Virus record (IMG/VR): IMGVR_UViG_3300037882_001482
Coordinates: 1-24,957 of that record
DNA from: a virus
Strand: one strand, 5' to 3'
DNA: 24,957 bases
Shown: positions 15,671 to 24,156 of the stretch, in pieces
Position numbering within the stretch: the stretch's first letter is position 1
Layout: each line of letters starts with the position of its first letter
The notes under the pieces: model-generated
What the model was told of the DNA's origin: nothing
The model's input: only the letters and a program-made list of their open reading frames with translations
The model's database searches: none
Position numbers and translations under genes: made by a program

Positions 15671-16096
15671 TTATAGGTGCTTTGTCAATACAGATAATCC
15701 TAAGCCGTGCAACACGCACTTTTGGACATCCGTAAACATATCGTCTGGTAGCACCTGAGTTTGATAAATTCTTTTGCCGTTTTTATCTTTACCTAAATTC
15801 AGAAGGTCTACTCGATGAAAACCTACGGCGTTAACCATATCACCTTTTATCCATCTATTAGCGTTGCCCCATTTTACAGGAAGCTCAAACGGTATGTCAA
15901 TCCTGCCATGGAAAGGCATTACTTTATCTGGTGCGGTTAGACTCAACGGAACTATAGTAACAAGTTTTACTCTTGCTTTTATTGCAGGGGAAAGAACGAT
16001 TGCCAATCGTAGTTTGTCCATTTCAGGGTTTTTAAATCCTTTATCATAATTAACGGTTACGATACTGCCACGCTCAGGATGAAATTTTATTGCCAT
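15671..16096 (-). CDS. PemK/MazF-like protein (IS passenger)
   Basis: The protein has 141 residues. The N-terminal pattern HPERGSIVTVNYDKGF (about 6-21), then KLRLAIVLSPAIKARVKLVT and IVPLSLTAPDKVMPFHGRID (about 28-68) match the SH3-like barrel of PemK/MazF-type ribonuclease toxins (PF02452-like), in which an RG...V start and a Thr/Ser in the TIVPLS region are typical. If active it would cut RNA, acting as a toxin. It is the last gene of the IS operon, 3 bp after the P63C gene, with no obvious Shine-Dalgarno site, so it is probably coupled. No separate small antitoxin gene is visible; the P63C protein may have that role or the domain may be non-toxic. Confidence 0.65.
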   Translation of the reverse strand: MAIKFHPERGSIVTVNYDKGFKNPEMDKLRLAIVLSPAIKARVKLVTIVPLSLTAPDKVMPFHGRIDIPFELPVKWGNANRWIKGDMVNAVGFHRVDLLNLGKDKNGKRIYQTQVLPDDMFTDVQKCVLHGLGLSVLTKHL

Positions 16097-16099
16097 ATA

Positions 16100-17071
16100 T
16101 TAATCAATAATTTGGTTCATTTCGTCAAATAAATATGGGGCAATAGTAACTTTCTTTTGCTTTTCTGCCGCTTGTTTAAAATGTTTTATATCTTGCGACA
16201 TCTCCATTAACATTTGCACTCTTCCTATTTGATGCGACAGAATATTTCTACCGTCATAGGAAAGCCATTGATGAAAACGTCCTTTACGCTTTCCGTCATC
16301 TTTTATATTTAATTCATTTAATTTACTCTTTACATAGCCGTGTTCTATTTGGTCGTAAATGTATTTATTTATAAATTTTCCATAATATTGCGGTCTTTTT
16401 TGAGATGTTGTAGGCTCGTTATCGTATAATCTATCTAATTCAACAAAAAATGTGTCAGGAAAGGTATGAATCCACTTCTGCATTCCTTCGGCAATATATT
16501 TTGTAAGTAACAATCTTAATGCGTTATGTTTTCTGTCGTACTGATAGCCCGTTGCTTCATCTACTAAAGCGTCTATACCGACTTGAGCTAACGCAGAAAG
16601 TAGTATTTCAGATTTAACAGCCAACGGCTCTTGATTAGATGTTAAGACCTTATCACGTCTAGCTTGTAAGTATATCTCACACATTTTCGGTAATAAAGTT
16701 GCTATATAACCAACTTTTTCTTGTTTTCCATCGGTATATTTAATAGGCGTGATCCGCCTCAAAACATCTTGATTTATATATGGTTTTAAATTAGCAGCAT
16801 CCATAAAGGCAGGGACTTTGATCCCATCTATTTCTAATCTGGAATTAGCACGACGAGGTCTATCAAATGCAGTAAATACAGATGTAGCACTTAAAACTCT
16901 AGTGCCATCATCAAGTACGGCACAATCCAATTCTACGTCTGCAATAGGCAGTATTCCGGGATATAAAGCTTTTGGGATTTTCTGAATTTCTTGCGTTTTC
17001 AAGATTGAGGAAACAACATTGTTAAAACTATCATTAATCGGTTCAATTATTTTATCTGTTTTCTTAGGCAT
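16100..17071 (-). CDS. P63C-domain protein (IS passenger)
   Basis: The protein has 323 residues. The C-terminal part has WIHTFPDTFFVELDRLYD (about 200-217) and RPQYYGKFINKYIYDQIEHG (about 226-245), the pattern of the P63C domain (PF10546), found in phage proteins and IS passengers. The N-terminal part, with DDGTRVLSATSVFTAFDRPR (about 56-75), resembles the KilA-N-neighbour type region seen before P63C domains. The molecular role is unknown. Its ATG overlaps the transposase stop by 8 bp (ATGCCTAA), so it is co-translated with the transposase. It sits in front of the PemK/MazF-like gene and may be its regulator or antitoxin. Confidence 0.8.
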   Translation of the reverse strand: MPKKTDKIIEPINDSFNNVVSSILKTQEIQKIPKALYPGILPIADVELDCAVLDDGTRVLSATSVFTAFDRPRRANSRLEIDGIKVPAFMDAANLKPYINQDVLRRITPIKYTDGKQEKVGYIATLLPKMCEIYLQARRDKVLTSNQEPLAVKSEILLSALAQVGIDALVDEATGYQYDRKHNALRLLLTKYIAEGMQKWIHTFPDTFFVELDRLYDNEPTTSQKRPQYYGKFINKYIYDQIEHGYVKSKLNELNIKDDGKRKGRFHQWLSYDGRNILSHQIGRVQMLMEMSQDIKHFKQAAEKQKKVTIAPYLFDEMNQIID

Positions 17072-17993
17072 TGATTAAATCCTTATAAGTTAAACGTTTA
17101 TTGTCCATTCTAGCTACAGTCATATTGATAAAGTCCATAGTATTGGCTTTTGAAGTATTATGACGGAAAGAAAATTCATTCACATAGCGGTGTAAGTGCT
17201 TTTCGCTCATGTGGTGGTAGATTCCATAGTAACCACGTTTCAATAAAGCCCAAAAACTTTCAATGCCGTTTGTGTGAGCTTGGTCTTTGATATATTCACC
17301 GACTGAATGATTAACAGTCATGTGTTTATAACCTTTTAAACCCCTGTATGATGGGAAGCTATCAGTTACTACTGTTGAGCCTTCTTGCACATTGTGACGT
17401 ATGAAGCCTTGTAGCGTAGCTCTGTTGGTGCTTTGTATGGGGTGTGCAATAACGTTGCCGTTTTCATCTCTTGCACCAATCACTGGAGTTTTGCCAACTG
17501 AACCACGACCTTGATGTAATTTCTTATTAGCGTGTTTGTTCACTTCTTTACCGCCAATGTACGTTTCATCAACCTGAACATGATTACCCATGTTAGTATC
17601 ACTATTGCCTAACCAAGTTTCACGGATTCTTTGAGCTAAAAACCAAGCTGATTTTTGAGTGATTCCAAGCTCTCTTGCCATTTGTGTTGAAGGTATGCCC
17701 TTACGTGCCGTTGTCATCATGTATATAGCCATAAGCCATTTATGAAGGGGCAAACGTGATTCTGCTAATACTGTTCCGGTACGAACGCTAAAATGATTTC
17801 TGCAATCCCTGCAACGATAAGGCATAGGCTTGTGGTCTTTACACTCAACTATGTTAACACTTCCACAATGACCGCAATGTGGCGCGTTACCCCATCTTTT
17901 ACCTTCAAAGAAAAGTCTTGCAGATTCTTCATTTGGAAACTGTTGAAAGAACTGATAAAAACTGATAGTTTCCGGTTTGGATTCTTTTGTCAT
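17064..17993 (-). CDS. tnp: IS1595-family (ISXO2-like) transposase
   Basis: The protein has 309 residues. A zinc ribbon at the N-terminus has C40, C43, C61 and C64 (CGHCG and CRDC). A helix-turn-helix-like region follows (about 100-126, IPSTQMARELGITQKSAWFL). The catalytic core shows D142 (VDETYIGG), D211 (VTDSFPSY) and N242/E245 in HTNGIESFWALLKRG, the ISXO2 DDE/N-type pattern. It would cut and rejoin the IS at its terminal repeats. All motifs are intact and the frame is unbroken, so it is probably active. It is transcribed from a promoter next to the right terminal repeat (18022-18050). Confidence 0.95.
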   Translation of the reverse strand: MTKESKPETISFYQFFQQFPNEESARLFFEGKRWGNAPHCGHCGSVNIVECKDHKPMPYRCRDCRNHFSVRTGTVLAESRLPLHKWLMAIYMMTTARKGIPSTQMARELGITQKSAWFLAQRIRETWLGNSDTNMGNHVQVDETYIGGKEVNKHANKKLHQGRGSVGKTPVIGARDENGNVIAHPIQSTNRATLQGFIRHNVQEGSTVVTDSFPSYRGLKGYKHMTVNHSVGEYIKDQAHTNGIESFWALLKRGYYGIYHHMSEKHLHRYVNEFSFRHNTSKANTMDFINMTVARMDNKRLTYKDLINA

Positions 17994-18644: not shown

Positions 18645-18676
18645 AAAAACCTCCTGTTAAAAATATCATTATACAT

Positions 18677-18896: not shown

Positions 18897-19274
18897 ATGA
18901 AACTTTTTGCCCAAAAAAGACAATCTTTGTCTGAAAAAACTCGTAAACAAGTATATAAAAAAAATAACGGTTTGTGTTATTATTGTGGTTGTAACCCTAA
19001 TAAATTATTTGCAGACCATTTTATACCTTCATATTTAAATGGTAAGGACACTTTAGACAATCTAGTCCCAGCTTGTCAAAGATGTAACCGTTTAAAAAGC
19101 AATCTTACAATAGAAGATTTCCGTGAAAGATACGTAAGAATGGAGATTCTCCAATATCCAACTTTTTCCTATAAACAGAAATCTTGGATGCTGTCTCGTG
19201 GTTTAGATATAGACAACGAAATCAATATAACAAAAAGCACTTTTAAATTCTTTTTTGAAAGGGGTGTATTGTGA
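18897..19274 (+). CDS. HNH endonuclease
   Basis: The protein has 125 residues. The HNH core spans about 24-70: NGLCYYCG (C27, C30), LFADHFIP (D40, H41), DNLVPACQRCNRLKSN (N55, C60, C63). The two CxxC pairs form the structural zinc site, as in McrA/HNH_5-type nucleases. It is expected to nick or cut double-stranded DNA. It lies first in the replication operon rather than beside the terminase, so a recombination, DNA-processing or homing role is more likely than packaging. A ribosome site GAGGAATC precedes the ATG. The stop overlaps the replication-protein GTG start as GTGA. Confidence 0.85.
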   Translation: MKLFAQKRQSLSEKTRKQVYKKNNGLCYYCGCNPNKLFADHFIPSYLNGKDTLDNLVPACQRCNRLKSNLTIEDFRERYVRMEILQYPTFSYKQKSWMLSRGLDIDNEINITKSTFKFFFERGVL

Positions 19275-20041
19275 GTTATCTTAAAGTTAAAGACTGGGAA
19301 CAGTTCCAACATTACAAAGACCGTAATCCACCATGGATAAAGTTATCAACTGATACTTTTCAAGATTATGAGTTTTCACGCTTGCAAGACGCTAGCAAGT
19401 TGCTAGCAATTTGTATCTGGACGCTAGCAAGTCGCTACAAAGACCCAAAAAAGGGCTTAGTTCCTGCTGATTTCAAGTATATAAAAAGCCAGTGTGGATT
19501 GGGTGATTTTGTAAAAGAAGAACATTTAAAAGAACTTATAGAACAAGGATTTGTAATAGACGCTAGCAACATGCTAGCAGACCGCAAGCAAAGTGCTATA
19601 CCAGAGACAGAGACATATAGTAAAGAGACAGAGGAAGAGAAGAAGAAAGATAATACTAACGTATTATCTAAAGAAAAAGATGTTTTGGAATTATATAAAA
19701 ACCTTGCCAAGAAAAAAACTTTATCAAAAAAAATAAAAACTGAACTGCCTTATAAAACTATTCCAGAAGACTGGTTAACATTCTGTCAAAAAGAAATGGG
19801 TTGGACAAACGCTCAAGCTGAATCTGCTTTTAATAATTTTAATTATTACTGGACATCGGACTTGCCAAAAGATAAACGTAAAATTAATTGGAAGGCAACT
19901 TTTGTAATATCTTGCAGGAATGGCTATACAAAACCAACCACGAATCTAAAACCTTCAAAGCCTGATGTTTTAACTAAAAAGCAAATAGCTGGTATTGAAG
20001 GGGCTAAACTTCTTGAAGAGGCGTTGTATGGAAAAGTTTGA
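19271..20041 (+). CDS. Phage replication protein (DnaT/O-like initiator)
   Basis: The protein has 256 residues. The N-terminal part resembles the winged-helix domain of phage replication initiators (PPWIKLSTDTFQDYEFSRLQ then LLAICIWTLASRYKD, about 20-58). The middle (about 105-150) is Lys/Glu-rich and flexible. The C-terminal part carries AFNNFNYYWTSDLPKDKRKI then NWKATFVISCRNGY, the DnaT-like primosome-loader pattern. It would bind the origin and load the DnaB-like helicase encoded next. The start codon is GTG at 19271, overlapping the HNH stop (GTGA). The gene itself contains candidate origin repeats (19388-19580). The 3' end overlaps the helicase start by 14 bp. Confidence 0.75.
   Translation: MSYLKVKDWEQFQHYKDRNPPWIKLSTDTFQDYEFSRLQDASKLLAICIWTLASRYKDPKKGLVPADFKYIKSQCGLGDFVKEEHLKELIEQGFVIDASNMLADRKQSAIPETETYSKETEEEKKKDNTNVLSKEKDVLELYKNLAKKKTLSKKIKTELPYKTIPEDWLTFCQKEMGWTNAQAESAFNNFNYYWTSDLPKDKRKINWKATFVISCRNGYTKPTTNLKPSKPDVLTKKQIAGIEGAKLLEEALYGKV
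19388..19580 (+). repeat. Iteron-like palindromic repeats GACGCTAGCAA...
   Basis: GACGCTAGCAA occurs three times, at 19388-19398, 19420-19430 and 19559-19569. Copy one continues as a perfect 17-bp palindrome GCTAGCAAGTTGCTAGC (19391-19407). Copy two has a decayed right arm (19423-19438). Copy three is GCTAGCAACATGCTAGC (19562-19578), with 7-bp arms. Together they hold five GCTAGC sites in 190 bp of an otherwise AT-rich gene. The repeats lie inside the replication-protein gene, as lambda iterons do in gene O. Confidence 0.7.
19388..19740. other. Candidate replication origin inside replication gene
   Basis: The iteron-like palindromes (19388-19580) are followed by a strongly purine-rich then AT-rich tract (about 19605-19740), which contains an 8-bp inverted repeat GATAATAC/GTATTATC at 19649-19668. 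Lambda and related phages place the initiator-binding iterons and an AT-rich unwinding tract inside the initiator gene itself. The order here (iterons, then asymmetric AT-rich tract, then helicase gene downstream) is alike. This is inference from structure and is not proof of function. Confidence 0.5.
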
Positions 20042-21272
20042 TGATGATAAATTTTACGACCAAAGAATTGAAGCTAGTATCTTGGGTTGTTTTTTAAGCT
20101 GGAGTAATGACTCTAAGCAATACGCTATAAAATGCAATTTGAGACCAGAACATTTTTATGTCCATGAACACGTTTTGATAATGGAACAGATTTTAAAGGC
20201 TGATGGTAACGTTACATGTTACACGTTAGGGCAAATCTTGCCAGAATCAAAGGAATATCTTGTTAAGCTTTCTGGTTACGGACTTGGATTAATGGTATTA
20301 CCAGAAACTATAAAAGTGTTAAAAGATTTATATAAACGTAGGATAATTAAAGAATTTTCTGCACGCTTTGAGTCCGTAATTTATAATAAAGATACTACAG
20401 CCGATGAAATAATTTTAAGCATGAGTAAACAATTTGATTTATCTTTAAAACAATCTGGTGATTATAATTTTAGCACGTCAACCGAGGTTTCTCAAGAGAT
20501 TGTACAAGACTTGCTTAAGGAAAATCAAGTTTCAAGTACTGGTTTAAATATCCTTGATAAAGCTATGTGTGGTGGATTTTACAGGGGTAAAGCTTATGCA
20601 ATAGCTGCAAGAAAAAAGACTGGCAAAACTGTCTTAGCTGCCACTATTTCTGCAAACTTAAATGACATAGGAAAGAAGCATTTATTTATAGCTGCTGAAA
20701 TGTCGGCAAAAGAAATACATCAAAGGGTGATAGCCAGAAAAATAAACAAAAACCCTATATCTTTCCTAGGTTACGAACGTACAAACCCTAGTTTTATTGA
20801 GAAAGTAGAATCTTATAAAGACGCTGGTAACGTGCTTTACTGTACCGAGGCTGGTATAAAATTCGACAGATTAAAAATGATTGTTAGTGCGGCTGTTTAC
20901 AAGCATAAAATAGAGGGTTTTGTGCTGGACTATTTCCAACTAGTAGGAGGGGCTGGTAGGGAGGGGCTTACAAGTCATTATGATGAGGTTGCTCAATGGA
21001 TAGCTACATTTTGCAGGGAAAATAATGTATGGGCTTTAGTTATGGCACAGATGAACCAAACGGATAACATAAGGGGCGGGGAGGGTATAAGGCTAGCATT
21101 TGACCAAGTTTACGAGCTGAAACGTTGCGGAAACGAGGAAGATGGATACTCAAATAACGGCTTCTGGCTTGATTTAATGGATACCAGATATACGCCATAT
21201 TGTGAAATGGGAAGTGAGAAGCAAGCAAGCTTAGATTTAGTGTCACAAGGATTATATTTTAAGGATTTTTAA
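20028..21272 (+). CDS. Replicative DNA helicase, DnaB-like
   Basis: The protein has 414 residues from ATG at 20028 (MEKFDDDKFYDQRIEASILG). A longer frame opens 33 bp upstream, but the DnaB-type start pattern fits ATG 20028. The N-terminal helical domain covers about 1-90 and the RecA-like core 165-400. A Walker A-type loop AARKKTGKT lies at about 193-201 (K200, T201). Walker B is FVLDYFQLV near 298-306 (D301), and the MAQMNQ sensor is near 339-344. It would unwind phage DNA and is loaded by the upstream replication protein. It is slightly shorter than E. coli DnaB, and its Walker A lacks the usual GRPSMGK residues. Confidence 0.85.
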   Translation: MEKFDDDKFYDQRIEASILGCFLSWSNDSKQYAIKCNLRPEHFYVHEHVLIMEQILKADGNVTCYTLGQILPESKEYLVKLSGYGLGLMVLPETIKVLKDLYKRRIIKEFSARFESVIYNKDTTADEIILSMSKQFDLSLKQSGDYNFSTSTEVSQEIVQDLLKENQVSSTGLNILDKAMCGGFYRGKAYAIAARKKTGKTVLAATISANLNDIGKKHLFIAAEMSAKEIHQRVIARKINKNPISFLGYERTNPSFIEKVESYKDAGNVLYCTEAGIKFDRLKMIVSAAVYKHKIEGFVLDYFQLVGGAGREGLTSHYDEVAQWIATFCRENNVWALVMAQMNQTDNIRGGEGIRLAFDQVYELKRCGNEEDGYSNNGFWLDLMDTRYTPYCEMGSEKQASLDLVSQGLYFKDF

Positions 21273-23023: not shown

Positions 23024-23414
23024 ACCCCATTCTTTGGTAGAAGTTGTTACCTCTATCGTTTTGCTTGTTGCAATTCAGGCATATATTTGAATAGCCTTCT
23101 TCTTTTGTTTGGCTAACAACACGCCTCATTAACTCCCTAGTAGCAAAACCCCGATGCTCTGGAAGTGTGGCAACGTTATCAAGCTTTCTTGTAAGGTTAG
23201 GGGCTGCACCCATCACGAGGATATCTTGAGTGGCTATCAAAGATACTACGTCACCCTTATGCAAAATAACGTGTTGTTTATAATTAGAAACCTTAGTTAT
23301 ACGGTCTATTACGGATATATAGTCTTCCTCTGTCATCTTTGGATTTAGTAGCTTGGCAACCTCGTATGAGCGGTACATATCTTTTGGTGTATCAAATATT
23401 GCAATTTCATACAT
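22983..23414 (-). CDS. GNAT-family acetyltransferase
   Basis: The protein has 143 residues. The acetyl-CoA-binding motif A is at about 80-100 (NVATLPEHRGFATRELMRRV, with H87, R88, G89). Motif B follows with NNFYQRMGF (about 123-131). The family acetylates amines, from aminoglycosides and peptide N-termini to aminoacyl-tRNA and aminoacyl-nucleotide inhibitors; the substrate here cannot be read from sequence. Its start overlaps the stop of the tryptophanyl-tRNA synthetase by 8 bp, so the two are translated together and may work together. The end overlaps the HTH/zinc-ribbon gene on the opposite strand. Confidence 0.85.
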   Translation of the reverse strand: MYEIAIFDTPKDMYRSYEVAKLLNPKMTEEDYISVIDRITKVSNYKQHVILHKGDVVSLIATQDILVMGAAPNLTRKLDNVATLPEHRGFATRELMRRVVSQTKEEGYSNICLNCNKQNDRGNNFYQRMGFKQTGNGWELLLG

Positions 23415-24156
23415 GGCTGCTTCTTAACTCGTTAATTATTAAGTCCGTTACATGTTTTTTTAAAGGCTCGTTTTTACCGTTATAAAAATACTCACAACCC
23501 AAAGCTTTTGATATTTCTAAAAGGTTAGATATTCCCTCTGGTGAGCTCACAGCCATCTTTATTTTTCTTGAAATATCATCTTTATTATCATTTAAATAAA
23601 CACACCCATTCTCATCATCATCTGATTTGCTCATCTTTTTGAGTGGGTTTGACAATGACATTATACGCTTACCAACAGGAGACGTAACCGCAACAGGCTC
23701 TTTTCTGCCAGTTTTGCGAGCAAGCTCTCTAACAAGTTCTAAATGTTGGCTTTGGTCTTCTCCTATAGGCACATGAGTACCTTTGTGATAAAAAATATCG
23801 GCAGCCATCAAAACAGGATAAGCATATAATGCTAATGTACCGCCTTTTTGCTTGTACTGTGTCATATTATCAAGTCTGGAGGTGTTCGCATAAAATGATA
23901 GTTCATGCAGGATACTTAAAATACCTGCTTTTGATTGCGATTGTAACCATAAGCTAGATTGTGATAAGCCACAATTTTTTAAAGCTAATAGAGTATCAGC
24001 AATTTCTTGGTTGCTATGCTGCCCATGCATATTTGCAACAAAAAATACACATCTATTACCTGCATCTTGTAACTTTCTCCAACTCTTAATAGCTCCAAGA
24101 TAATTACCTAGATGCAACTTTCCGCTTGGGCGGATTCCAGAAACGTATTTATTCAT
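23407..24156 (-). CDS. trpS: Short tryptophanyl-tRNA synthetase
   Basis: The protein has 249 residues against about 330 in bacterial TrpRS. The class I HIGH-like motif SGKLHLGNY is at 11-19 and the KMSKS loop at 174-178 (LKKMSKSDD). The motif YPVLMAADIF (113-122) keeps the Asp (D120) that reads the tryptophan indole in known TrpRS. GEDQSQHLEL (132-141) and GISNLLEI (208-215) are also conserved. What is missing is most of the C-terminal helical part after about residue 245 and some of the connecting insert, which contributes to anticodon binding. It could charge tRNA-Trp or act as a modified binder. It lies 4 bp after the 70-residue gene. No tRNA gene was seen in the window. Confidence 0.9.
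   Translation of the reverse strand: MNKYVSGIRPSGKLHLGNYLGAIKSWRKLQDAGNRCVFFVANMHGQHSNQEIADTLLALKNCGLSQSSLWLQSQSKAGILSILHELSFYANTSRLDNMTQYKQKGGTLALYAYPVLMAADIFYHKGTHVPIGEDQSQHLELVRELARKTGRKEPVAVTSPVGKRIMSLSNPLKKMSKSDDDENGCVYLNDNKDDISRKIKMAVSSPEGISNLLEISKALGCEYFYNGKNEPLKKHVTDLIINELRSSHV

Follow-up and report, generated by a model that had tools for sequence, protein, structure and literature searches.

The segment 19377-19649 of the window, by which we mean the whole analysed stretch of 24,957 nucleotides of the viral record IMGVR_UViG_3300037882_001482, is very probably an iteron-type theta replication origin that is embedded in the gene for its own initiator and would be bound by the N-terminal winged-helix domain of that protein. 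The grounds for this reading, all of them found in the DNA itself, are the repeat arrays and their phase, the selection acting at the DNA level, the conservation of the layout, the purine tract adjoining the arrays, the helicase gene next to the initiator gene, and the change of iteron from one class of initiators to another. From these we infer the binding of the initiator to the repeat units, the firing of the origin and the place where the strands would be opened.

The initiator gene and its neighbours

The replication initiator gene (19271-20041, plus strand) begins with a GTG start codon and encodes a protein of 256 amino acids. This protein matches the replication protein profile phrog_26426 (E=1.3e-18), as do 65 of the 65 aligned relatives, and gives no Pfam match. 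It is composed of an N-terminal winged-helix domain (residues 1-105), a charged linker and a variable C-terminal domain. In the AlphaFold2 model the pLDDT exceeds 90 over most of residues 1-100, and the modelled N-terminal part, strand-rich at its start and helical further on, is read as a winged helix. The PDB look-alikes of the modelled domain include the RepA_N plasmid initiators (Z 5.5-5.9), these matches being weak and mixed with unrelated folds; Foldseek provided a weak link from the model to DUF1376 proteins, and the sequence search of solved structures returned ribosomal proteins only. As to the C-terminal domains, they appear to be variable, judging from the PHROG matches, which differ between relatives, and from the presence of Phg_2220_C in one of them.

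Directly upstream, overlapping the start of the initiator gene, there is an HNH endonuclease gene (18897-19274, plus strand; PF01844, E=1.1e-9), which is a neighbour and lies outside the origin. Directly downstream is the gene of a DnaB-like replicative helicase (20028-21272, plus strand; DnaB_C, E=9.3e-15; phrog_19, E=9.3e-31). The next gene was identified in part of the relatives, and DnaB-like helicases, DnaC-like loaders and other Walker-A proteins are the 3' neighbours in some of them; the calls relied on Pfam and PHROG in the window, and in the relatives on features of the sequence or on the annotation of the record.

The repeat arrays

Nine 11-bp units with the core GCTAGC form two facing arrays in the initiator gene, at 19377-19441 and 19559-19602, and spaced by 11 bp within each run. 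The left array starts with a run of three units (19377-19409, plus strand), CACGCTTGCAA at 19377, GACGCTAGCAA at 19388 and GTTGCTAGCAA at 19399, in frames 1, 0 and 2, and continues with a run of two (19420-19441, plus strand), GACGCTAGCAA at 19420 and GTCGCTACAAA at 19431, in frames 2 and 1; relatives also hold arrays at this position. The right array (19559-19602, plus strand) consists of GACGCTAGCAA at 19559, CATGCTAGCAG at 19570, ACCGCAAGCAA at 19581 and AGTGCTATACC at 19592, in frames 0, 2, 1 and 0. Five of the cores are perfect (19391, 19402, 19423, 19562 and 19573), and the other four are one or two letters off (GCTTGC at 19380, GCTACA at 19434, GCAAGC at 19584 and GCTATA at 19595).

The original prediction reported three GACGCTAGCAA repeats, and the three exact copies are indeed there, on the plus strand, as the only exact copies in the window of 24,957 bases and as a part of the larger array of nine units. 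The two 17-bp palindromes that it described exist as well (19391-19407 and 19562-19578), the second being perfect only in its 7-bp arms. With two or fewer mismatches allowed, GACGCTAGCAA has 14 matches in the window against 4.8 +/- 2.3 in shuffled sequences. The hexamer GCTAGC alone is not enriched over the whole window (7 occurrences, 5.2 expected). Within the initiator gene it occurs five times, against a maximum of 4 and a mean of 0.59 in 20,000 synonymous-codon shuffles, and the three copies of GACGCTAGCAA are to be compared with a maximum of 2 in such shuffles.

Relatives and selection at the DNA level

About 270 relatives of the initiator gene were gathered. They come from five cultured phages, from viral contigs and from prophages whose hosts belong to the Proteobacteria, Planctomycetes and Gemmatimonadota. 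The collection made by protein similarity, which is blind to the repeats, comprised viral loci (80 of 574 confirmed candidates listed) and 40 loci of bacterial genomes, including those of Alpha- and Gammaproteobacteria, Planctomycetes and Gemmatimonadota; a search of plasmids for close relatives gave no match. Relatives fetched by the DNA pattern were left out of the Ala-Ser codon test, the table of tract codons and the stop-slot test, and were partly included in the table of GCTAGC spacing and the positional profile of AGAG. Redundancy was cut by shared peptide words, without a phylogenetic model, and the ORF starts of the relatives were set by rule.

The 97 non-redundant genes contain 287 GCTAGC against 46.9 +/- 6.4 in synonymous-codon shuffles, and the 86 genes fetched by the protein search only contain 249 against 41.7 +/- 6.0. 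Per kb, the hexamer occurs 4.11 times within the gene and 0.12 times in its flanks, a 34-fold difference. Where the domain has an Ala-Ser pair, it is written GCT-AGC in 126 of the 241 cases (52%); codon usage for the remaining Ala and Ser residues of these genes predicts 4.4%. That the repeats are kept for their DNA sequence, as originally supposed, is thereby borne out, since the palindromes persist in relatives while codons and frames vary, far above the synonymous-codon null. The in-gene layout of repeats is conserved in more than 100 diverse phages and prophages, and we consider these data unusually strong signs that it is the letters of the DNA, not the protein, that are preserved. Weak arrays combined with a kept protein motif were seen in relatives L121, L126 and L129.

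Spacing and stop avoidance

The commonest spacing between GCTAGC cores is 11 bp (59 pairs), followed by 32 bp (28) and 21 bp (13). As the 11-bp step shifts the reading frame each time, every third unit would put TAG in frame, and for this reason the slots of every third unit are never perfect within the gene. In the window the frame-1 units are free of TAG: those at 19380 and 19584 are GCTTGC and GCAAGC, and in the one at 19434, two letters off, TAC replaces TAG. In the relatives the slots where TAG would arise hold a one-mismatch variant, mostly GCTTGC or GCAAGC, in 38-42% of cases; at control positions displaced by 3 or 6 bp the figure is 0-2%. In 26 viral contigs three perfect GCTAGC follow one another at intervals of 11 bp, and the DNA there is non-coding in every case, as it must be, since one of the three puts a stop in whichever frame is read.

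Runs of at least three perfect GCTAGC, spaced by 11 bp, are present in non-coding DNA of L273, L281, L267, L290, L011 and other loci, and some non-coding arrays adjoin DUF1376-like or family initiator genes. Arrays like those inside the genes may occur outside genes as well, to judge from these loci.

The purine tract

The right array is directly followed by a purine tract starting with AGAGACAGAG (19603-19649, plus strand), which is a conserved element: in most relatives it starts 20-30 bp past the last GCTAGC, and over +20 to +50, scored in 20-bp intervals, 77-90% of 146 relatives contain AGAG, against about 5-10% over most of the remaining gene. The codons of the tract are biased, with ACA used for 90% of Thr (28% elsewhere in the genes), AGA for 80% of Arg (15%) and GAG for 88% of Glu (52%). 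Five-base repeat units are also present in the tract, and the encoded peptide is sometimes ETETE and sometimes EEKRREEK. In five members the tract is inverted, being TCTGTCTCTG-like and read as SVSVS in some of them, which speaks for an element of the DNA that can function on either strand. The same inversion makes us disfavour the idea of a purely RNA-level (R-loop) signal.

According to the original prediction the purine-rich tract was followed by an AT-rich one with an inverted repeat. The purine tract is there, and so is the 8-bp inverted repeat GATAATAC-TAAC-GTATTATC (19649-19668), a DNA hairpin with z=-6.3 and of uncertain role. It is absent from the four relatives inspected (L028, L264, L004 and L031), and the family average over the 146 relatives aligned on the last GCTAGC displays no rise in AT after the arrays that would point to an AT-rich unwinding tract. 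Neither the AT-rich stretch nor the hairpin is a family feature; what the family conserves besides the arrays is the AGAG purine tract.

Iteron classes among the initiators

Some relatives are devoid of GCTAGC, and several have a different unit within the same gene. GATATC, mostly at 11-bp spacing, is found in L143, L144, L298-L309 and the cultured phages DC33 and PBR31, GTATCA in L145 and GCTTGC in L044. GATATC creates no stop in any frame, and its perfect units are spread across the three frames (14, 15 and 10 cases). The residues encoded at the unit sites differ, as exemplified by DDITVISPRYQDD in L144 of the GATATC class and DASNMLADRKQSA in the window. GATATC occurs in 16 of the 16 members with the QHFKDR motif and in no member with QHYKDR. 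This link is an association, short of proof of co-evolution, because the tree, built on few columns and with 84 of its 171 inner branches weakly supported, needs just one or two changes to GATATC. The record of the Limnohabitans phage DC33 (PQ492659.1, our L388) bears the taxonomy Inoviridae, which is at odds with its genome of 39 kb, and the label looks wrong.

Alternative explanations

The arrays could serve as operators, at which transcription of the initiator's own operon is regulated by the initiator itself or by another regulator, and not as an origin; we regard this as improbable. Palindromic sites are typical of operators, plasmid initiators commonly autoregulate through iterons, and sites inside a gene can block elongation. 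However, nine phased units in two arrays located 100-330 bp inside the gene, a purine tract at a fixed distance and an adjoining helicase gene fit an origin better, and the roles of operator and origin could coexist. Somewhat less probable still is a partition, incompatibility or packaging site serving another protein of the phage or the host. Arrays of palindromes occur at sites of these kinds too, but here they track the initiator family, with 115 of the 119 pattern matches falling in ORFs that have at least one family-like motif (an upper figure, because the motif test is loose), and the sequence of the iteron changes with the class of initiator. As for the supposition that the repeats and the tract merely reflect protein sequence (DASK/LLAS motifs and an acidic ETETE linker) and have no DNA function, some of the encoded domain residues are conserved, but we reject it as scarcely credible on the strength of the codon tests in the family (Ala-Ser codon choice among them) and the synonymous-codon shuffles of the window gene, together with the alternation of frames, the stop-avoiding variants, the different residues encoded at the same place by the GATATC genes and the inverted tract, which encodes SVSVS and not ETETE.

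Comparison with known origins

The location of iterons inside an initiator gene is already known from lambda (PMC7466680) and SPP1 (PMC6316719). In oriLambda, the layout of which inside gene O has been described (PMC7466680), dyad-symmetric iterons occupy the middle of the initiator gene, as the arrays at 19377-19602 do in the gene 19271-20041; in both cases the iterons adjoin a one-sided purine-rich tract, and a helicase-recruiting gene lies downstream. The differences are that lambda has a single array of four iterons of about 18-20 bp, whereas the window has 11-bp units in two arrays, and that an AT-rich tract comes after the iterons of lambda, whereas the tract of the family is AGAG-rich and not AT-rich. 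Similarity of the initiator to lambda O is not detectable (BLASTP E=0.88; hhalign probability 0.1%); some relatives match, somewhere along the protein, PHROGs named O-like. The origin was initially called lambda-like, and this holds for the layout only, because the proteins are not similar and the iterons differ in length. Comparison with lambda O and with Rac ydaU disclosed no shared iteron.

In the Bacillus phage SPP1, oriL has its gp38-binding repeats inside gene 38, and replication also requires a phage helicase loader and a DnaB-type helicase (PMC6316719). SPP1 differs in having AT-rich unwinding regions and a second origin, oriR. In the RepA_N initiators (those of the staphylococcal plasmids pSK41 and pTZ2162 and of the satellite PLE) the N-terminal domain binds semi-palindromic iterons, and the C-terminal domains vary with the host genus (PMC7145576). 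An N-terminal domain proposed to bind palindromic iterons and apparently variable C-terminal domains are points in common with the family described here, whose weak fold matches include RepA initiator structures, while the spacing and sequences of the iterons are different and the PLE iterons are in a non-coding region; Pfam RepA_N was not detected in the window protein or in nine relatives.

As for the DUF1376 initiators, such as YdaU of the Rac prophage, a DUF1376-like phage gene (L239/L378) has GCTAGC units spaced by 11 bp, and GCCAGC takes their place in the frame where a stop would arise. This gene is on the reverse strand of L239 (9750 bases), from about 4916, L378 being the same locus, and is outside the family of the window by sequence motif. 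The GCTAGC iteron may, to judge from L239, be shared between initiator families. The ydaU gene of K-12 has no GCTAGC, nor do the DUF1376 genes that were read in an order-wide sample of 150 genomes. In the DUF1376 gene of L390 (ORF bases 378-411) there are four GAAAAC repeats exactly 11 bp apart, which suggests that other in-gene 11-bp arrays exist.

Proposed mechanism and its implications

In the origin that we propose, the N-terminal winged-helix domain would bind the 11-bp palindromic units, which are about one helical turn apart, and an initiator complex would be built up on the two facing arrays, about 150 bp from each other. Strand opening by this complex would take place beside the right array, at the AGAG tract, and the helicase, a product of the next gene, would be recruited by the C-terminal domain. 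In its way of working the origin would resemble those of lambda O and SPP1 gp38. Cumulative GC skew, which was to serve as a check on the origin, reaches its minimum in the window at 18,674, some 0.7 kb short of the repeats; the support is weak because the gene orientation switches near the same place. In the Vibrio phage phiV208, a cultured member with GCTAGC, the minimum is 2.1 kb from the array, again a mild support, whereas the phage DC33 gives none, neither GC-skew extreme being at the initiator gene.

More tentatively, and with considerable doubt, we suggest that the family consists of self-addressed initiators, the gene of which would hold the address read by its product, threaded through three frames around the stops, with the class of address (GCTAGC, GATATC or GTATCA) changing together with the domain. 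The AGAG tract, in either orientation, could then be a sequence-specific element for strand opening or helicase loading, with a role like that of the bacterial DnaA-trios, and not a plain AT-rich region.

The iteron family is unreported in the papers searched, most subscription journals being outside our reach. Within the searchable papers, the iteron family, the plan of two arrays, the stop-avoiding grammar, the class switch and the reversible tract appear to be new. The origin would become predictable from sequence alone for a large family of phage and prophage initiators, and the iteron classes would allow the recognition of origins by initiators to be decoded. The arrays also provide a natural experiment on overlapping codes, as the DNA signal is perfect where no stop arises and is bent by one letter where a stop would, and the AGAG tract raises the testable question of strand opening without an AT-rich region.

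Other genes of the window

Several genes on the minus strand of the window deserve mention. An IS1595-type transposase gene (17064-17993, 309 aa) lies beside a P63C-domain gene (16100-17071), and a gene of a PemK/MazF-like toxin is located at 15671-16096. The gene at 23407-24156 encodes a protein of 249 amino acids whose match to class I (Trp/Tyr) aminoacyl-tRNA synthetases covers most of the profile; such a gene is unusual for a phage and is possibly host-derived.
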